Positions 4,600 to 56,500 of a DNA stretch of 64,000 nucleotides are shown one piece after another. The translations under genes and the position numbers were made by a program. Under the pieces are notes generated by a model. That model worked only from the letters and a program-made list of their open reading frames with translations. It was not told the origin of the DNA and searched no databases. The DNA comes from Dicyema japonicum. Its lineage: Eukaryota; Dicyemida; Rhombozoa; Dicyemidae. Each line of letters opens with the position of its first letter. Positions within the stretch are counted from its first letter, which is position 1. The stretch covers positions 124,001 through 188,000 of the forward strand of contig RDEW01000022.1 in the NCBI GenBank assembly GCA_011109175.1, given 5' to 3'.

Positions 4600-5035
4600 G
4601 ATGAAAGCTGGACGAAAAAAGCTCGTAGAAATGATGTTTGGGAATACAGCACAAACGAAATTTTAAGTATTCCTGTGAATATGAGAAACACGTGATTGCT
4701 TTTAATTAATAGAAATATTAAATTTTATAGACTCGTATACTCTCAGTTTATTAAGGGTCATCGCTCAATAGTCAACAGTTAAATCCTAAGGGTTACTCTG
4801 TGTCGTAGAGCTACGTCACATTCGGACAATAATCTTGTTGATGTGTTGATGGTCAACATCATATATTATTATGGAATTTGTCTTCTATTGATGCATGAGT
4901 CCTTATTTCTTTGGAAAGAAGATTGCAGAGAAGAAGCATTATAATAGGAAGAGAATAAGCTTATTTCTTTTGAAGAGGAAGATTGCAGAAGTGACGAAAT
5001 GAAAAACAAAAGTTGGAATTGCCTTCGGATCTGCT
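4600..5035. repeat. Dispersed repeat, inverted partner at 25.90-26.23 kb
   Basis: The reverse complement of this segment matches 25900-26230 with scattered differences. Shared strings include ataaggactcatgcatcaa and atgttgaccatcaacacat. The stretch around 4965-5000 differs between copies. No clear coding content was found in either copy. It may be a small transposon or part of a larger duplication. Confidence 0.6.
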
Positions 5036-5589
5036 CAAACTTTTTTATATATCGATTTGTATATTAAAAAGGCGGTAGCTTAGTAGACTGGCTGCTTTTA
5101 AGTGTTTTCGTTGCAATTTTAAATTTTTAATCGGCTGGATATTATGTTCTGGTCAAATGATCACTATTGCAGCCATCTGAGTTGAAGATAGTTTCAGATA
5201 TGAGGACCTGAGAAATAGACTTAGTGGGGATAGTTTCAGAGATGTTTAATCAATGCTTCAAACATTTTAGGTTAAATTTTTAACATTAAATCAAATTTAA
5301 AATTAAATTATTTAAATAATCCGTTGGATAATTGCACACTGTTGAGGTGGAGAAAAAAAAGTGGAGTTAAATAAATAAATAAGAAGTACGAGATGCTTGC
5401 AAACTAGATGGAGGCAGACGCTTGGATGCAATGCCCTCCTTATTCCATAGTATTGACGTTGGAAGGAATTGCGACAAAGTACCACAAGACTTATCTACAT
5501 AGGTAAGAGTAGATATGAAGATACAGGCCTACCTACAATCCAATGTTTTAAAGCGAACCACAGAGAGCCTGACACTGAGAGAAGCCCGA

Positions 5590-5755
5590 GATATCAAGTG
5601 AGTAAAGGGATCAAGAGATAAGAGGAAGCCGAAAGTATCAAGTGGGTAAAGGATCAAGAGTATAAGAGGAAGCCGGAGATACCAAGTTGGTAAAAGGATC
5701 AAGAGTATAAGAGGAAGCCGGAGATACCAAGTGGGTAAAGGGATCAAGAGCAATT
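5590..5755. repeat. 45-nt minisatellite, about 3.5 units
   Basis: Tandem units of about 45 nt, each with a core like aagaggaagccggagatacc followed by aagt(t/g)ggtaaaaggatcaagag. Units differ by a few substitutions and short indels. Because 45 is a multiple of three, an open frame runs through on the minus strand, but it is only a translation of the repeat. Each unit also has a GT...AG segment of about 22 nt on the plus strand, which recalls the micro-intron arrays elsewhere in the window. The remaining 23 nt is not a multiple of three. Confidence 0.8.
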
Positions 5756-21870: not shown

Positions 21871-22022
21871 AACTACCAGTATTTTATGTTTCATTTCAAT
21901 TGCTATGAGATTGATAAATTTTTATTATATTAGAATTAAACTAAAAATTATTTGTTAATAAATATAAATTGTATCATCTTATTATATATATTCCATAACT
22001 GTGGTGTAAATCGACAATAATT

Positions 22023-23085
22023 ATGGACAATATTGCTAAAGGTTTCCAAAATTAAGCAATTCAATAGGGATTATGTTTTATTGTATTTTGATCGGCATTG
22101 CAAAGAATCTCATTGAAGTAATCAAATTACCAAATACACGGGTAACGACGTGGAGCATTAATAATATGGAGTATTCCATATTATTAAGCGGAAATATTAA
22201 TATAGATAATCAAAATGTACAAAAATATGATAATTTTAGGATAAAATTACGAATTTTGATAATTCAGATATTTCATTGAATATCTACCAATTAAATCAAA
22301 ACACTGACCGTATATCCATCATAATGGCAGTTAATAGGTTAAAAATTTACATTCGAATTACAAAAAGTAATAAGAATTATGAATTAGACAAAATGGATAT
22401 TCAAATTGATAGTACTTTGTAAAAATATGTTTAGGTAATGTGTATGCTAAATTGATTACTGATTATTTCAATAATGTATATCATTGCGGTGAACTTCAAA
22501 TTCAATTCGGTGAAGGTAGTATTCTTATAATGAACGAATTAACAATCCAAATATCCAACACAACGAAAATTAAAAATTTTTCTGGAAATGGTTATTTTTA
22601 TAATGAATTTTAGTTACTGAATGCAGATTTACTCAGCCTACTACAAGTAAACACTAATTAGTAATTTATGTCGTCTATTTAGTTATTTTTATTGCAATAT
22701 ATTTTATGCTATTATTTTAGTCGCTTCCACTACCACAACACCAATGGAGGCTACGACTCAAGGTACAATTTTTGTATTATGTGATCATCTAATATTTTTT
22801 GGATATATTTTTTATTTGATTATTTTAGTTCATTCGACTACCACAATACCAACAGAGTCTACGACCCAAGAAGCAATTTTTGTATTAATGGACCCAAATT
22901 TTTTTACACAAATATTTTATGTGACAATTCTATTTAAAACAACTACCACACCACTAACCGTGATTACGACTGAGGGTACAATTTTTATATTAATCAACCC
23001 ATACTATTTTGCACAAATATTTTATTTTCTAGTTAAAACAACAACCACAACACCAACGGAGACTACGATTGAGGGTACAATATTA
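22023..23085 (+). CDS. Surface-protein family member with Thr-rich mini-exons
   Basis: A multi-exon gene whose phases close across 23-26 nt GT-AG introns. The exons are 22023-22041, 22068-22216, 22240-22411, 22435-22590 and 22614-22646. A 74-nt intron follows, then 42-nt mini-exons at 22721-22762 and 22829-22870 and a later one at about 23039-23080. The product starts MDNIAKGIMFYCILIGIA, a plausible signal peptide. Next comes one domain with TRVTTWSINN, SIIMAVNRLKIYIRI, the closing motif VYHCGELQIQF and FSGN, then TECRFTQPTT. Each mini-exon adds a Thr-rich peptide (IASTTTTPMEATTQ, VHSTTTIPTESTTQ, VKTTTTTPTETTIE), likely an O-glycosylated stalk. All of these are phase 1. One unit near 22948 has lost its acceptor AG, and the donor after 22870 reads AA instead of GT. 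No transmembrane exon follows before the sequence changes near 23100, so the 3' end may be missing. Function unknown; predicted secreted or surface. Confidence 0.7.
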
Positions 23086-23119
23086 ATAATTATTAAAAAA
23101 TTAGACATTCTCACCTTTT

Positions 23120-30250: not shown

Positions 30251-33095
30251 AACATTCGTCCTACATTGGTCAGGTCCTTGTGTAGAACCTATGGCAAAGT
30301 TATGCGAGGTCTTCCACGGAACGAGGTATTCACTTCTGGGCAGAAATAGTTATTCATTGCTATTTTAGCAGGCTTCAATTGGCTCATTCGAAGGATGTGA
30401 CCAAACAGACGTCATCTTGATTCTAGGATATCCAGACTCAATGGTCTTGTATTACATACTTTGTATAGATTCTTGTTTGTAATTTTTTTCGGCCAGTTGA
30501 TGCCAAGCAACAGTCGGAGTTGCTTACGATGGAAGGCATCTAGTTTGTCCATTACCGCTTCTGAGACACCCCAGGTTGCAGCGTTGTACATTAGGACTGG
30601 TTTCACGAAGGCATTATATAGTCTCACACGTAATTGTGTGCTAATTTGTTTACGATGATTCCAGACTACTCCCATTTTTCTAAAGGCCGCGACGGCCAAC
30701 ATTTTTTTGTTAGTAATATCCTCAGCGTCTCCGAGCAACGACCCCAATTTTTTACAGTATCTCCATTTTTCATCAGTTCGGGTTAGTTCACGGCGTATGG
30801 TAGTTGTCTCCGTCTTTTTCGTATTGATTTTGATGAACCATTTTTCTAAAACATCTGGCATCCTTGTCCGTATATAGTTTAATGTTTTCTCGTCGCTGGA
30901 TATATAGTCGAAATCATCTGCATAAAACACTTCAGTTTGAGGTAGATCGCCAATTAATAGTCTGAAGTCTCTGAGTGCCGCCTCCAGATATGTCACAAAA
31001 AATACCGGTGACAAGGAATCTCCGTGCGGTACCCGAACGTTGTCTCGAATAGGACAGACTCCAAATTTCCAAAACGTACACTTAGCTGCGTTGTTCCAAG
31101 TAATAGACGAATCATTCTGACACCGTCCTCGTCAACCAACTTCTCCAAGATATCCAAAAGTCTCCCTCTGTTTATAGAGTCAAAGGCTTTGGACATGTCC
31201 ATGCCAAGGATGCCAATAGCCCCCTTGTACTTTTGATGTGTTGCACAAAGCCATCGATGTCCCCAGACCACATCAGCTGTAGATCTCCTTGACCTGAATC
31301 CGCTTTGACCGTGAGAGAGAAAGTTCTCGATGTCAGATCCAATCCTGTTCAGCACTATAAGTGATAGTGTCTTGCGTAGAGTCGTCAATAGTACGATGGG
31401 TCTTAAATTCGTTAAGGGGCCTTTAGCTTTGCCCGGTTTTTGTAGTGCAATTAGTGTGCCATTACCCAAATCCAGTGGTGAGTTGTATTTGAATGTTTTG
31501 TTGTATATCTCAGTTAATAGTTCAGAGATCTCGGTCGGTGCATATTTGAGAAGTTCAGCATTTATGTTGTCAGGACCAGCAGCTCTATTGTTGTTCAGTT
31601 TGTCCAGGGCTTTTTTTGTTTCCAGAATCGTTATCGGAAGATTTAGTTCTCGTGCTTCACCATCGAATTGTTTGATTATTTCCCCGTGGTTTTGATTGAA
31701 GGCCTGCTGATAATGGCTGGATATGGTCGATAGAATTTCATATTTGTTTAACATAGTCTTTCCAAACTGGTCATGTATTGTGATTTTTGATAACTGCGTG
31801 TCTCTATGTAGTAGGTGAATAGCCTTGAACATCTGCGCTCCGTTTTTGAGTCTTTCTACTTCTTTAGCCATTCCAGCAAATTTATTTTCCTTTATTTCCC
31901 TCGTTCTTTTCTTTATTTTATACAGAGTTTGGTTCCGCATGGCTCTTAGAGTGTGTTCCTTTGCCTGGTCCTGGCAGGTTTCGACCTGTAAACGTAGGTT
32001 CCTCTGCAATTTGGATAGTTCTTTAAGTTTGTGGTCATAGTATCCGTTAAAATGGTTCGGTTTTACTCCGACTGTTGAATGGGCCGCGCACTTTATTGCA
32101 TCGATGGTGTCTTGCCAGAGCTCCCCAGGCATTTTTTCTTTATTCCACTGTCTGATCTTTTCTCTCAATGTATTTTGATAGCTTTCCCGAGTCGGTCCTA
32201 CCATGCAGAGTTGCTCTACTGCGAACCTCCCCTCAGATATCCTCATGCCAGCCGCTTTGGAAACCCCAAAATATCGTTCGAAAAGGAAACGTGCCACAAC
32301 TAATCTGTGATCACTATCTACTAGTGTCCCACTGTAGCTCCGAGAATCTGTTAGCATTGCCTTGTAGGCTTGTTTGCAGATAATGTAATCTATTTGGTTA
32401 TATATAGGCTTGATAGTCCCAGATTTGTCCTTTCGGTAGCAGCTCCATGTCGTCTTATGTCTTGATGAGTACCTGAAAGCAGTTTTGTATAGAAATAGTT
32501 TGAATGTATTGCAAAATTCGATTCTCCTGAATGGTTCATGATCCTTCTTTTATGGCTTCCCATGAATTCTTCGTGACTACTCACACATCCTGCCTTTGCG
32601 TTCCAATCTCCGGCGATGTATGTCATGAACGATGTTTCCAAAGATGCATATAGTTGCGACAGGGAGGAATAGAAGTCGTCTAGTTCGTCTCCATTGATTG
32701 ATACTCTCACCGAAGTTGGTGCATATACATTAATAATGGAGATTATGGAATTGTTCCTTTCACCGTATTTTAATTGTAAAACACATATTCTATCGCTCAC
32801 CTCCACGTCTTGTGGATTCGATTGTTCAGTTCTTTTTGTATTGCAAATCCCATGCCGTAGTGTGGGCAATTCGAAGGGTGCAGAATCAGGCGGAAATCAT
32901 TGTTGATTTCATCTAGTCCGCCTTTTACTTTCGTTTCCTGTAAGCACGCCACGGTTACCTTGTACTATCCAAGATCCACATAAATTTCTTCTTTTAATAT
33001 CCGACTTTATTCCTCTTACATTGGACGAGCTAATAGTGAAAGATCCCGAAGAAAAGCACGAAAAAGACATGTGTGCAATAGAGCCACGTCACCAG
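30250..33095 (-). mobile_element. Nearly full-length LINE, family 1
   Basis: The best copy of this family, read on the minus strand. The 5' end has ggtgacgtggctc near 33080. Next are SNVRGIK, then HYGMGFAIQ, and an EEP ORF (32869-32390) with the intact active-site block AGDWNAKAG. A 454-aa ORF (32357-30993) carries the SDHRLV motif, a long basic linker and the RT fingers (NNRAAGPDNIN, GQSGFRSRRST, MDMSKAFDSINR). A frameshift at about 31030 leads into HGDSLSPVFFVTYLEAALRD and the catalytic FYADDFDYI. The 3' part ends with the thumb and the LFGHILRM tail to about 30260. Frame breaks near 32370-32400 and 31030 make it inactive unless they are sequencing errors. Confidence 0.85.
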
Positions 33096-33400: not shown

Positions 33401-33529
33401 ATAGTTTAAAACTGCAAAAAATTTTTATTATATTAGAATTAAAATTAAAAATTATTTGTTAATAAATATAAATTGTATCATCTTATATATATATATATTC
33501 CATAACTGTGGTGTAAATCGACAATAATA

Positions 33530-33962
33530 ATGTACAAAATTGCTAAAGGTTTACAAAATTAAACAATTCAATAGGGATTATGTTTTATTGTGTTTTTGTC
33601 GGCTTTGCAAAGAATCTCATTGAAGTAATCAAATTATCAAATACACGGGTAACGACGTGGAGCATTAATAATATTAAGTATTCCATATTATTAAGTGGAA
33701 ATATTAATATAGATAATCAAAATGTACAAATATATAATAATTTTAGGATAAAATTACGAATTTTGATAATTCAGATATTTCATTGAATATCAACCAATTA
33801 AATCAAAACACTGACCGTTTATCCATCCTAATGGCAGTTAATAGGTTAAAAATTTACATTCGAATTACAAAAAGTAACATGAATTATGAATTAGACAAAA
33901 TGGATATTCAAATTGATAGTACTTTGTAAAAATATGTTTATGTAATGTGTATGCTAAATTGA
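33530..33962 (+). pseudogene. Truncated surface-protein family copy
   Basis: The exon structure is the same as the gene at 22.0 kb: exon 1 33530-33548 (MYKIAKG), a 26-nt intron, then exon 2 continuing IMFYCVFVGFAKN with TRVTTWSINN. The third exon follows a 23-nt intron. The next intron has lost its acceptor: the sequence reads tttat where the 22.4 kb copy has tttag. The copy stops at 33962 before the YHCG motif, joined to an inverted fragment of deoxyhypusine synthase. A truncated pseudogene. Confidence 0.7.
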
Positions 33963-34080
33963 TTAGACTAACAAGGGGATTTGACTTACATATATTGTAG
34001 AACGATTTCCCGGTTATTTGTCCCGCTTTGACTGACGGTTATATTGGAAATATGTTGTTTCTTCACTTTTTTGGACGTCC
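33963..34080 (+). pseudogene. DHPS: Inverted fragment of deoxyhypusine synthase
   Basis: About 115 bp complementary to 28395-28490 (shared acttacatatattgtagaac and ttatattggaaatatgttgt). The sense direction of the enzyme is on the plus strand here, opposite to both larger copies. It marks an inversion breakpoint at 33962/33963. Confidence 0.75.
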
Positions 34081-35776: not shown

Positions 35777-37215
35777 AACAGTCATTTTACCTTCAATCGT
35801 CGACGGATTTGTAGAAGCTAGGGAAATTAACAGTCATTATACCTTCAATCGTCGACGGATTTGTAGAAGCTAGGGAAATGAACAGTCATTTTACCTTCAA
35901 TCGTCGACGGATTTGTAGAAGCTAGGGAAATGAACAGTCATTTTACCTTCAATCGTCGACGGATTTGTAGAAGCTAGGGAAATGAACAGTCATTTTACCT
36001 TCAATCGTCGACGGATTTGTAGAAGCTAGGGAAATGAACAGTCATTTTACCTTCAATCGTCGACGGATTTGTAGAAGCTAGGGAAATTAACAGTCATTAT
36101 ACCTGATGTTGTTGACTGAGTAGTAGAAGCTAGAGAAATGAAAAGTCATTATACCATCAGTAGATGAAGTGATAAAAGCTGACGTTAATAAAAAGTCATT
36201 TTACCTTCAATCGTCGACGGATTTGTAGAAGCTAGGGAAATGAACAGTCATTATACCTGATGTTGTTGACTGAGTAGTAGAAGCTAGGAAAATGAACAGT
36301 CATTATACATGATGTTGTTGACTGAGTAGTAGAAGCTAGGGAAATGAAAAGTAATTATACGTGATGTTGTTGACTGAGTAGTAGAAGCTAGGAAAATGAA
36401 CAGTCATTTTACCTGATGTTGTCGACTGAATAGTGGAATCTAGGGAAATGAAAAGTCATTATACCATCAGTAGATGAAGTGATAAAAGCTGACGTTAATA
36501 AAAAGTCATTTTACCTGCAATCGTCGACGGTTTAGTAGAAGCTAGGGAAATGAACAGTTTTTATACCTGCTGTCGTCGACTGAGTAGTAGTATTATCTTG
36601 GAAAATGACTAATCATCATACATTCAGGCAATGGATAAGTAAATTCTAAAGTTAATGAAAAATCATTATACTTCTTAGTGTCGTCTGAAGATATGAAGCT
36701 ATGGAATTTAACAGTTTTTTATACCTTCTTTCGTCGACGGAGTAGTAGAAGCTTTGAATATGACTAGTCATTATACCTTTAGTCAATGAACTGATAGAGG
36801 CTATCGTTAATGAACAGTCACTATACCTTCAGCCAATGGAGTGGTAGTAGCTGACGTTAATGAAAAGTCATAATACCTGTAGTTGTCGACGGAGTAGTAG
36901 AAGCTAGGATAATGACTAGTCATTATACTCTTAGTCAATGAACTGGTATAGGCTATCGTTAATGAACAGTCATTATACCTTCAATCAATGGAGTGGTAGC
37001 AGCTGACGTTAATGAAAAGTCATAATACCTGTTGTTGTCGACGGAGTAGTAGAAGCTAGGGATGGGACTAGTCATCATACCTGCTGTTGTCGACTGAGTA
37101 GTAGAATCTAGGGAAGTGACTAGTCATCATACCTGTTGTCGTCGACGGAGTAGTAGAATCTAGAGAATTGACTAGTCATTATACCTTCAATAAATGAAGT
37201 AGTATCTTCATTTTC
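35777..37215 (-). CDS. Array of 28 micro-exons and micro-introns encoding Ser/Thr-rich repeats
   Basis: Read on the minus strand, this is a tandem array with a period of about 50-52 nt. Each unit is an exon of 24, 27 or 30 nt followed by an intron of about 24-26 nt starting GT and ending AG. Typical introns start gtaaaatgactg or gtataatgac and end ccctag or cgtcag. I count 28 units. Every exon is a multiple of three and all lie in phase 1, so the spliced frame stays open throughout. Products are repeats such as ASTNPSTIE, ASTTQSTTS, ASTTPSTTT, AFITSSTD, AATTPLIE and ASISSLTK. This is a mucin-like Ser/Thr/Pro stalk with no hydrophobic segment. The 3'-most six exons are identical or nearly so, evidence of recent unit duplication. 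The next sequence in the transcript direction is the YHCG-domain copy, across an ambiguous base at 35776. Start and end of the gene are not certain; expression and splicing are inferred. Confidence 0.75.
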
Positions 37216-37700
37216 TATTAATTAAAATTTACATTAATACCTTTTCCTTAACTTAATCCAATCTCTATTAATCAAAATTTACAATTTACTGGAAAATATT
37301 TCGAAGAATATCAAAAGACTGACTAATATCATTCAACATTTCCGTCTGTGTTCGATTATAAATATTCATCAAAGAATTTGACCTTATTTATTGTGAGTCG
37401 AATGAATTCCATACACATAAAGGGATATTAGCTTATATCTCGATTAATTTCTTCTCTTACTAATCTCACTTCACGTAATGGAAACGTTCTTTTTTATCTC
37501 TGATGATATCAATAAAAATTCTTTGTCTAAAAATAAATAACAATAAAAACTAACTTCACAATCATATTTGTTCACAAAAGAGACTCCTGACAAACACCAC
37601 AGATTTCAACATTACCCTATAAGACGTCCGAATTATACTTGGAAAAACTCGTTACTTTTATAGAGGATATCCCTGGGGACTTGGAATTAAATTTTTATTT
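37215..37700 (-). CDS. Possible 5' exons of the micro-exon gene
   Basis: Upstream of the array on the minus strand, GT-AG micro-introns of 25-26 nt continue (37216-37241 and about 37266-37290). They flank a 24-nt block, and before it lies an open stretch reading MNIYNRTQTEMLNDISQSF. In the array's phase the 24-nt block contains TAA, so at least one junction is wrong or the block is skipped. No signal peptide could be identified. Tentative. Confidence 0.25.
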
Positions 37701-42366: not shown

Positions 42367-44139
42367 GACAGGAAAAGTACATCCCGACATTTCTGGAAAA
42401 CTCTTAAACAAGTCAAGTCGGAACTGGATGATGCAGACGGAACCGGAAAGTCTTCTCCTGAACACTTATACCACCTACATCCTAACACCCTTATGAAACA
42501 TTACGCTGGAATTAGCTTCAAACCATTCTCGAAACACCTGGACATTAAGGTGCGTGCCCATAAACCGAAGAAGGAACCTTACCACGAACTATTCACAGAT
42601 GACCAAGTCTTGGATGTGATCACCAGATTAAAGAGCTCACGGGCGTGCGGGCCTGACAAAGTATCTTCTATTCACCTAAAACACCTAAGCCACTACGCAA
42701 TTGGCTACCTCACGCATATATACAACCTGTCCATTAACTATAATATTACTTCTCAAGATTTGGAAGAATTCTATTATCAGACCGATATTGAAGGCTGGAA
42801 AATCAGAGACAGAACCTGCATCCTACAGGCCTATTTCCGTTACCAGCACACTATCAAAAATTATGGAGAAACTTGTATTATCAGTCATTATTCCGTATCT
42901 TCCGCGTCCTATATTTCAACATGGTTTCCTCCGCGGTAGGTCCATCGCTACATACTTGGCAACTTTATCGCAGTTCATTGCCGACGGTTTTAACACCCAT
43001 CCTCCGCCTCACAAACGCACAATCTTGGTTTCTATTGACATCAACAAAGCCTTTGACACTGTTTCGAGGAAAATCTGGTTGGAACAATATTTTCTACTAA
43101 TATTCGTCCGAATGTGAAATTATGGCTGGCCAACTTTTTGTCTGGAAGACGTGGAAGAGTAGTCAGTGGTGATCTCAGATCTAGATCACGATTACTACCG
43201 AACGGGGTACCCCAGGGGTCTCCACTTTCACCAATTCTATTCAACCTATTCCTACACGACCTACCTAATGATGGAGACGAAGATTCCCTGCTATTATCCT
43301 ACGCAGACGATGTAGTCATTGCAATACGGAACCGCTTGACGCAAGTCGCATCCCTTAAAACTCAGACAAAATTGAACACTCTCCACGATTGGATTGTTGG
43401 CAATCGACTAACGATTTCTTCAACCAAGTCTATCTGTTCCACATTCACGTCGGACCGTCGTTCCAAGGATGAACCGAGTATTTTTATTGGTCCCGCTCGG
43501 ATTCCAGTGACAAGGTCCCCCACTGTCCTTGGAGTCATGTACGACAGCCTTCTCAAATTCAACTCCCACGCAACAGACATGATCACCAGGGGCCTCAAGA
43601 AAGTTAACGTTATACGCGCCCTTGTTCAGAGGACCACTAGGAACATGGACTTTTCCGTTTCTACCATTTACCAACAAACAATCGCGCCTGCCATTGAGTA
43701 TGCTTCCGTTGCATGGAGATTCGGGCTATCGGAGTCTATGGTCCAAAGAATCAACTCGATATACCGGAAAACAATCAGTATGCTTTCCCCACGTAATGGA
43801 TCAACAGTCGACCCACTACTCATGGAAGCTAAGATCCGTAGTCGTGGCTCCGGATTTCTTCGCGTCTGTGAGGAAGATGGAAATCCGCTTCGCCTGATCC
43901 TTTCCATGGCAAGAGAAAACCGATTGGATAAGAAATTCCCTCTCCGATCGGATTCCTCTGCAAGACCGAGAGAAGGCTCTTCCGGAAAGTAGCGGGGACG
44001 ATGGAAGATCACAGACGTCGAATGGCACAATTGATTGCGAGGACTGAGATCACCTAACTGTTTGACTCTTTTGTCTTTCTTTCTCGGTGTTCCCGGGGTT
44101 ATTAAATAAATAAATATTTTAAAATCAATAAAGTCAATT

Positions 44140-54191: not shown

Positions 54192-56500
54192 CAACTAATT
54201 AAGTGATCCCGGTACGCCTCAACAGGATCGAGAGGTTTTTCCTGTGTTCCTCCAGAGTACCCACGGCTTTCCTGAATAGACGACGATCATCTTTCATTAG
54301 AGTTTGAAGAGGAGTGGGTTTTTTCCCCAAATTTCGTGTATTTGAGGCCTTTAGCCTTGAATGGAAGAAACGACTTGTTTCTTGGCCACACAGACAGATG
54401 AAGCCGGAGCCATTATTTTTGATTGCGGCGTGGTCAAGCATTGGAGGGAAAAGATCGGGGGGTAGATTCGTTTGACGTGCTAGTTTTCCAATTAGGGTAT
54501 TGATCTTGAGTGAATTTGATATCGAAGCTCCATAGGCCCATGAGGCACAGGCGTACTCAATCGTCGGTTTTAGGAGTTGATTGAACACGACGAGGGCGCA
54601 TTCCTGTGAAGGTTTGGACTTCAAGAGCGGTTTGATAATATTAAGTTTCCTGAGACCCTTTGTCATAACGTTCTTCACATGTTGAGAAAATGTCATCAAA
54701 GGGTCAAATGTCACTCCCAGGATAGTTGGACGAGTCTGTAGTGGTAAGGAGTCTCCAAAAATGTTCAAATCAAGTGTATGTTTTTCTTTTCTGTCCGTGG
54801 TGAAAATTGTATATGTTGATTTGTCCCTGGATACGGAGAGACGATTCATCTTCAACCAGGCTCCCAGGTCGTCAATATGTGACTGGAGCTCTGATTTTGC
54901 TGTACCCACGTATTTGTTCCTGCTAGCGATGATTAGGTCGTCAGCATAAGTGAGAAGCATTGAATCTGGTCCTCCAGGGCAGGGTAAATCGTTGAGGAAC
55001 AAGTTGAATAATGCCGGAGAGAGGGGCGATCCTTGAGGGACGCCATTTGGTAGGAGACGGGACCTCGATCTTGCCTGGCCTATACAGACACGTCCTCTTC
55101 TTCCGGAGAGAAAATTGGCTATCCATCTTTTCAAATCCGTCTGAATGGTGGTGCCAAAAACCTCCTTCGTGAGTAATGTTCTCGAGACAGAATCGAACGC
55201 CTTTTGGATATCCAGGGAAACCACTATTGTCCGTAGATGGCGTTTCGGTACGTTGAACCCTTCTGATATAAATTGAGACAGTGAAGTCAAATGTGTCGTA
55301 GTTGAACGCTCACATTTGAAACCATGTTGTAAGTGGCAGTCGGGCAAATGGGGTTTAATTTTCCAGAGTACGAGTTCTCCATTAAGCGCGATAATGCGCA
55401 CGTTAATGAAATTGGACAGTAGGAAGAAGGTAAGGTTTTCGGTTTTCATGGTTTAAGGATTGGTATTATAAGTGAGTTTTTCCATTTGCATGGGATGACG
55501 TTCATGTTCGAAGATAAATTAAAAATTGACGTAATCGAATTGATTGCAACATTATCAAGGTGTTTTAGCAAAATTCCCGGAATATCGTCAGGATACACGT
55601 ATAAGATCTTTTCATCGATCTTATAGCCTGTGTGACCTCGACATGCGTATATAAATTGATCCACGAAGTTGGTTTAGGCATTAAATTCCTAAGGTGACAA
55701 GAATGTGATTTCGAGAAGTCCTTGTGACTTATGGATGCGTAGTATTTCATTAGATTGTTAGCTTGAACAGTATTTTGAGCAGAAAAAGATTCTGATTCAT
55801 CTGATAAGTTTAGCTTGATTCGACGAATAGTTTTCCATAAAAGACTCGTAGATTTCATATGTCCAATAGATGATAATAGCCACTTCCACGCCTTATCTTT
55901 CTTTTCTCTGATGAACTTTGTAATTCTCTGATTTAAGCATTTTATATTTTCCAAATCAGAAGAGGTTTGCAGATGATTCATCTTCAGTGAGTTTTTTTGT
56001 TTGACAATTCTCAGAGTCCAGAGAAGGCTAGTGGGATTTGTAAACTGCACGTGGTTCAAACAACTTTTCAGCAGGAAGGAATACATGGTTTAGATGGTCC
56101 ACTGCTTTGTCGATGGAGCAAAATGAAGTGGGATCACAATAGAAATTTGTTCCGCGGTCTTGTGTAGAATTAAATAATCCACTTGCGAGCTCACATCGTG
56201 AAAGGATAAAACGTTTTTAATAATGGTGAGTAAGCCGCAACCACGTACAATGCTGTCTTTTCTGATAGAGATGTATCCAGGAAAAATTGGGGTTGTACTG
56301 TTTGTAGAAAGTTTTGACTCCTGGATAAGGCAGATATCAGTCTTGTGCTTGGCTAATAAACATCATAACTCTAGAATCTTTGTTTTTATTCCGCTAGCAT
56401 TGAGTTGCATAATAACATGGGGTTTTGGTTCAGGCTTTTGTTCAATATCTCCAGAAAGCAATGGAATTCAGGGGAACAAACAACATCTCTAGTTTCCAGT
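54010..56500 (-). mobile_element. CR1/jockey-like LINE (family 2), minus strand, near full length
   Basis: The 3' tail lies at 54030-54200 (complement of the ggtgttccc...ggggttatt tail). The main ORF (55449-54199, 416 aa) has CERSTTTHLTSLSQFISEGF, VVSLDIQKAFDSVSR, NGVPQGSPLSPALFNLF, the catalytic TYADDLIIASR, PTILGVTFDP and the C-terminus GTLEEHRKNLSILLRRTGIT. Upstream, 55664-55446 and 56086-55565 give the RT fingers and linker in broken frames. 56490-56130 keeps EEP pieces (ESKLSTN-like and the glycine-rich GLLTIIKN block). It is close to, but distinct from, the 41-44 kb copy. The main ORF is intact; the 5' half is frameshifted. Confidence 0.85.

Follow-up and report, generated by a model that had tools for sequence, protein, structure and literature searches.

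The window, by which we mean the whole stretch of 64,000 nucleotides from the Dicyema japonicum genome that was analysed (contig RDEW01000022.1, positions 124,001 to 188,000), carries on its minus strand, at 35777-37214, a tandem array for which TRF reports a period of 52 nt and 27.4 copies (35777-37191), together with longer periods of 310 and 152. The array was cut into units on resemblance to intron consensus sequences only, neither an open frame nor GT/AG ends being required, and this resolved it into predicted micro-exons alternating with micro-introns (Table 1). An earlier note on this DNA had placed the array at 35777..37215; it is indeed there, although it starts at 37214 rather than at 37215. 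The exons (19 of 27 nt, seven of 24 nt and two of 30 nt) are each a multiple of three in length, in phase 1 and free of stops (28/28), just as they had been described. The complete introns all run from GT to AG (27/27), as had also been claimed, but measure 25 nt (n = 19) or 26 nt (n = 8) instead of 24-26 nt. When spliced as predicted, the array encodes 247 residues in an open frame, 54% of them Ser or Thr and 61% Ser, Thr or Pro, so that the Ser/Thr/Pro-rich character noticed earlier holds for the window product, which has in this respect the tandem repeat composition of a mucin-like protein. Left unspliced, the same strand contains 36, 38 and 36 stops in its three frames, and the opposite strand 48, 45 and 46. 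Exons 23-28 are identical in sequence. With all 28 exons symmetric, the further statement that any subset of them could be spliced together with the frame intact is arithmetically true.

Table 1. Features of the window, with position, strand and the basis of each assignment.
Feature	Position	Strand	Basis
Putative first exon, MNIYNRTQTE.., followed by a 19-nt intron	37338..37369	-	Inference
Putative exon coding for hydrophobic LLIFFEIFS, signal-peptide-like	37290..37318	-	Gene model and paralogue comparison
Putative short exon, with a 38-nt intron to array exon 1	37253..37264	-	Gene model (lighter intron penalty only) and paralogues
Array of 28 predicted micro-exons (24, 27, 30 nt; phase 1) and 27 complete micro-introns, GT..AG	35791..37214	-	TRF and consensus cut
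Last donor and intron of the array, truncated by N	35777..35790	-	Sequence reading
One N, probably an assembly gap that was collapsed	35776		Sequence and published gap rate
Reverse-transcriptase ORF, LINE-like	30412-32357	-	Pfam RVT_1
Reverse-transcriptase ORF, LINE-like	43114-43992	+	Pfam RVT_1
Reverse-transcriptase ORF, LINE-like	54199-55449	-	Pfam RVT_1

Upstream of the array, the putative exon nearest to it keeps its frame open in two of the paralogues described below, C118 and C109, as well, and the intron predicted after the first exon has the length of the shortest intron class found among housekeeping genes. At the other end, the sequence of the window gene breaks off at the N, so that its 3' end is lacking. 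The assembly used here comprises 64.67 Mb in 191 contigs, and the available text of the genome paper gives 67.5 Mb in 377 scaffolds, with a GC content of 36.7% and a gap rate of 4.1% (PMC6736024); since 67.5 Mb minus 4.1% is 64.7 Mb, gaps appear to have been collapsed to single Ns. The true number of units may therefore exceed 28. From 35775 downwards, the minus strand is an inverted partial copy, 89.6% identical, of 22296-22886, a region belonging to another predicted secreted protein that has Thr-rich exons of its own and introns that are longer. Because this copy begins exactly at the N it is not joined to the array, and the material past the N need not be part of the array gene.

The second predicted secreted protein (22020-23096, plus strand) has a hydrophobic start and an ectodomain followed by a Thr-rich part, in which ~42-nt phase-1 exons and ~60-nt introns lie in tandem with a period of 105; it has partial copies at 33419-33965 (+) and 35775-35159 (-), and Pfam gave nothing above cut-off for it. 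When ten of the twelve window ORFs were scanned with Pfam, nothing was found for the array; one endonuclease-like match fell under the cut-off, and an RVT_1 match at 30412-31014 lay slightly under it. Multiple LINE copies are described for the D. japonicum genome in the accessible part of PMC6736024. A 45-nt tandem repeat with a unit divisible by three lies at 5581-5750 (3.8 copies, 88% matches), and neither Rfam nor a tRNA scan returned a match in the window.

Introns of 25 nt are ordinary in this genome and are not peculiar to the window locus. Among 48 introns that we modelled in six myosin/HSP70 loci, a few of which may be model errors, 46 measure 20-28 nt, one 19 nt and one 37 nt, with ~24 nt being typical (15/48 are of 23 nt and 11/48 of 25 nt). 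The array introns belong to the same size class as dicyemid micro-introns: as far as the available texts go, the median intron is 27 bp in Dicyema sp. (PMC6543705) and the mean intron 38 bp in D. japonicum, where the mean exon is 198 bp (PMC6736024). Array exons of 24-33 nt are far from that norm, and it is the tiny exons and their tandem layout that are the unusual part. A search of the assembly for COX1 gave no match.

The earlier note had called for a genome search for further arrays of the same unit, and seven more loci were found. BLASTN against the animal's own genome identified similar arrays on C118, C152, C109, C159, C135 and C153, as well as a remnant on C105. Subjected to the same consensus cut, these contain 38, 30, 14, 17, 15, 8 and 3 introns, respectively, which with the 27 of the window makes 152. 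Units measure 48-58 nt and follow one another without spacer, with introns of 22-26 nt across loci; on C118, 38 introns lie within ~2 kb, most of them between 24-27-nt exons. TRF periods differ from locus to locus (102 nt on C118, 149 and 99 on C152, 264 on both C109 and C159, 49 nt on C135 and 49 to 148 on C153), and C118 contains runs of identical 102-nt dimers. Such locus-specific multi-unit periods resemble those of satellites expanding several units at a time.

By their flanks, the loci fall into a subfamily A (window, C118, C109, C159 and C105) and a subfamily B (C152, C153 and C135). The C105 remnant (L015, about 4881-5063, minus strand), with three introns left, abuts a flank that is 93.5% identical to the stretch upstream of the window array, and matches C118 at 98% identity in its 3' part; it arose by deletion or recombination, or else is a short allele. 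C109 and C159 look degenerate, with stops, one broken acceptor each and CT in place of GT at the donor of the subfamily A intron that follows the first exon; they can therefore be used as an internal control. The C159 array (L012, 4929-6219) also includes two Ns; its 5' part is repeated, and at its end a 98-nt unit recurs without any change, which reflects either an assembly artefact or a real duplication. A search with the subfamily A 5' end gave three further partial hits, of which two lie on C109 and one on C159; no 50-nt array lay next to them in the stretches read there.

Open exons with a hydrophobic stretch precede the array in both subfamilies. Those of subfamily A remain open, despite differing lengths, in three loci (C118, C109 and the window), the hydrophobic stretch reading LLIFFEIFS or LLLFFDIFS, while the gene model (see below) gives C152 and C153 a short signal-peptide-like start, MKTNIVVLFFTIKSAP, ahead of the array; C135 is without the ATG of this start. 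Past the array, the members of subfamily B have a hydrophobic TM-like exon followed by basic residues. Judged by eye, this exon has both its acceptor and its frame intact in C135 alone (VIPAVIVIILVIYILHIYGKRKR); in C152 the acceptor reads AC for AG, with a further AG nine bases on, and in C153 a one-base insertion lies past the hydrophobic part. No membrane anchor was evident, again by eye, in the subfamily A paralogues with a readable 3' end: the C109 and C159 products end in ..NTTYENIN or ..NTTYEKIN followed by a stop, with a six-base in-frame indel between the two loci, and the C118 product ends shortly past ..TTTLKTE. The term "stalk", which the earlier note had used for the product, may thus apply to subfamily B, whereas proteins of subfamily A may be secreted. 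For the C152 product, Pfam gave nothing above cut-off, and a comparison of its N-terminus (residues 1-46) with a large protein collection yielded nine candidates, none with E <= 0.001.

The arrays were also analysed with a codon and splice-site model whose training set consisted only of the six myosin/HSP70 loci. A version with a light intron penalty over-called introns and was replaced. On the window array, the model reached a score of 57.2 with 27 introns, compared with a maximum of 11.4 in 100 dinucleotide shuffles. When columns were permuted alike in every unit, a procedure that preserves the repeat and was applied to four of the eight loci, 0/200 permutations each of the window, C118 and C152 arrays scored as high as the real sequence; for C135, whose array is very uniform, 8/200 did. 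The best paths contained 39 introns at C118, 35 at C152, 18 at C135 and 15 at C153, but only 6 at C109 and 8 at C159. C118 scored 84.6 on the forward strand and 36.7, with 22 introns, on the reverse strand; reverse strands of the other seven loci scored 6.2-18.8. At C135 the model frame changes with the intron penalty and a second frame is also stop-free (0/14 exons with a stop), so that C135 taken alone proves little.

We then pooled the eight loci. The cut gave 144 closed exon intervals, of which three, all on C159, were set aside: two (252 and 124 nt) contain Ns, and the third (73 nt) is not divisible by three. All of the 141 internal exons counted, 88 of which are distinct, are multiples of three (140/141 before, and 141/141 after, a one-base shift of a C153 boundary to its AG). 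All 152 introns start with GT and 148/152 end in AG, the four broken acceptors lying one each on C118, C109, C159 and C135. Nine array/length classes contain five introns or more; in these, 2 variants were counted in the 36 GT/AG columns, as opposed to 136 in the 192 interior intron columns, a constancy that 20,000 random draws never equalled. The broken C109 and C159 acceptors belong to smaller classes outside this comparison. Intron length varies by one base (25/26), whereas the counted exons vary by threes only. Stops occur in frame in 3/141 exons (four before the re-cut), compared with 52 and 56 exons at offsets one and two, and they are confined to C109 and C159 (3/26 exons versus 0/115 at the remaining six; Fisher P 0.006). 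The accumulation of stops in other copies, which the earlier note had named, together with a lack of transcription, as a ground for giving up its reading, is not seen beyond these two loci. In addition, among nine classes of 24- or 27-nt exons with at least five exons each, a set that leaves aside the 33-nt exons holding the other stop, one distinct stop-making variant was found where random variants of equal spectrum gave 5.8 +/- 1.7 (P 0.004).

Splice sites were scored with a matrix derived from the housekeeping genes. Medians for the 148 AG-ending array introns ranged from 5.6 to 7.5 by locus; the decoys, 499 GT..AG pairs, gave 3.2, and the housekeeping introns, which are the matrix's own training data, gave 7.8. 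The predicted array introns thus resemble the spliceosomal introns of this genome in being GT..AG, ~22-28 nt long and with a housekeeping-like motif. Taken together, the constancy of the splice sites, the frame, the exon lengths and the shortage of stops across eight loci support the reading of the array as micro-exons and micro-introns. The frame and splice sites are not unconstrained, as they would be in a non-coding satellite, a point on which C135 alone does not decide.

The residues themselves behave differently. Distinct exon variants included 146 nonsynonymous changes against 136.8 +/- 4.4 expected and 52 synonymous ones against 56.4, so that no purifying selection on residues was seen in this set. 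Exon columns (199 variants in 228) were as variable as intron columns (136 in 192), and the visible selection is therefore on splice sites, frame and openness only. Losses of Ser, Thr or Pro were as frequent as expected by chance (67 versus 66.2); the description "mucin-like" thus fits the composition of the product, but selection for these residues was not seen. Selection of this kind would suit a flexible stretch defined by its length, and would equally fit a locus with a recent loss of function. Most of the introns contain a palindrome, ATGA-N4-TCAT, at positions 6-17, with a variable loop and all four pairs present in 63/85 distinct introns of 25-26 nt. A hairpin in the intron RNA was considered and dropped, as the changes were G-U or pair-breaking and almost never compensatory.

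On this sequence evidence, we consider it very probable that the array belongs to a protein-coding gene with an exon-plus-intron minisatellite as its coding repeat, one of a small dicyemid family encoding mucin-like proteins that are secreted or sit at the surface. Since introns are about 25 nt long in this animal, a repeat together with its intron takes up only ~50 nt, and intron number rises with repeat number. One protein repeat of 8-11 residues and one intron could then be expanded and homogenised like a minisatellite, recombination or slippage duplicating whole units so that repeat and intron would be gained jointly. Each intron would presumably be removed by intron definition, a donor being paired with its own acceptor ~25 nt away, the next lying at ~75 nt. 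The product would be secreted and glycosylated on Ser and Thr, and repeat number would be expected to differ between individuals. As all units are phase 1-1, the frame stays the same whenever units are gained, lost or skipped; on C118, for example, one unit is without its AG, and skipping it would preserve the frame.

Other readings have to be weighed against this one. The family could be real while the window copy is decaying or truncated and yields no protein: the copy ends at an assembly gap, decaying relatives exist in C109 and C159, with their stops and broken acceptors, and C105 is down to three introns. We regard this as unlikely, however, because none of the 28 window exons contains a stop and all 27 complete introns keep both GT and AG.

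Alternatively, as the earlier note had suggested, the array might be a programmed isoform generator, whose units are skipped in many combinations to give proteins of many lengths. A precedent for variable transcripts comes from SmPoMuc of Schistosoma mansoni, for which the available text reports that the number of repeats in transcripts ranges from 1 to 100, with no more than 20 in the genome (PMC2576457). In the dicyemid array, any skip would be frame-safe, given 28/28 symmetric exons, and near-identical donors and acceptors should permit other pairings. Symmetry is nevertheless the automatic result of tandem copying of one unit, and introns of genome-normal size favour the nearest acceptor, a skip needing an intron of at least ~75 nt; a programmed generator is thus improbable, and the frame-neutral units probably reflect tolerance to copy-number change. 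We give slightly less credence still to a combined scheme, in which some 25-40 frame-neutral micro-exons, nearly identical and separated by minimal introns, would be spliced in variable subsets while the array also expanded and contracted in the genome; one locus would then supply mucins of continuously varying length, both within an individual and from one individual to the next.

Finally, a non-coding minisatellite spread from a gene fragment (exon plus intron), its gene-like look kept by recent copying, is very improbable: it would accommodate the local homogenisation seen in window exons 23-28 and the C118 dimers, exons that vary like introns with nonsynonymous changes unsuppressed, and a C135 array that alone is inseparable from permuted repeats at the 1% level (8/200), but not GT/AG columns that stay near-invariant beside variable neighbours, 141 counted exons without an out-of-frame length, stops that fall under expectation and are restricted to the degenerate C109 and C159, or open frames that run into flanking exons in several paralogues.

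If the array is indeed part of a coding gene, it would illustrate how, with introns at the lower size limit, an exon plus its intron can act like a minisatellite, introns multiplying alongside the coding repeat. Up to 38 introns in ~2 kb, as on C118, would be a severe test of intron definition in nature, and raise the question of how the spliceosome picks the acceptor that belongs to a given donor out of dozens that are nearly identical. Dicyemids are tiny parasitic, host-associated animals of very few cells, and an array of this kind would offer such an animal a way of varying the length of its secreted or surface mucins, in parallel to SmPoMuc.

We found no report of such arrays in dicyemids by title among the matches listed, in a search that mostly did not extend to subscription papers and preprints, and the word "mucin" is absent from the main texts of three dicyemid papers (PMC6543705, PMC6736024 and PMC6854800). 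A search of the literature on minisatellite-linked intron gain and tandemly repeated exons gave nothing similar by title among the matches listed. The earlier note had compared the array with schistosome micro-exon genes (MEGs) and had described the arrangement as one not known to it from elsewhere. The MEGs resemble the arrays in having very short exons, mostly multiples of three (here 141/141 of those counted), in genes for secreted proteins. In the accessible part of PMC10526429, however, most MEG exons are given as 15 bp and their introns as 0.1-5 kb, far longer than the 22-26 nt found here, and that part gives no account of the exons as copies of one tandem unit.

The view that the arrangement is not known elsewhere does not stand as it was put, since SmPoMuc provides a precedent, as do the genes for spider silk. 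The repeat units of spider silk genes are far larger than those of the dicyemid. In what is available of PMC2576457, these genes are cited as another exon-plus-intron repeat, and the likeness lies in protein repeats mirrored by genomic repeats of exon and intron, and in their concerted evolution. The same text describes SmPoMuc as a gene of 15 exons, with introns averaging ~550 bp, in which a 27-bp exon and a flanking intron are repeated in ~1-kb units, with at most 20 repeat copies and polypurine tracts (PMC2576457). As far as that description goes, the two systems share a mucin-like protein of a parasite, an exon of its own for each repeat, a short exon co-amplified with its intron as the tandem unit, several loci, and near-identical arrays that defeat assembly. 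They differ in that SmPoMuc is known with cDNA and the dicyemid arrays, here, from the genome alone, and in that the dicyemid arrays have units of 48-58 nt and up to 38 introns per array in place of a ~1-kb unit with polypurine tracts in a 15-exon gene. The dicyemid arrays are therefore not a SmPoMuc and are merely similar in build; what is new about them is an exon-plus-intron repeat at minisatellite size, about 20 times below the SmPoMuc unit, a scale that the short introns make possible.
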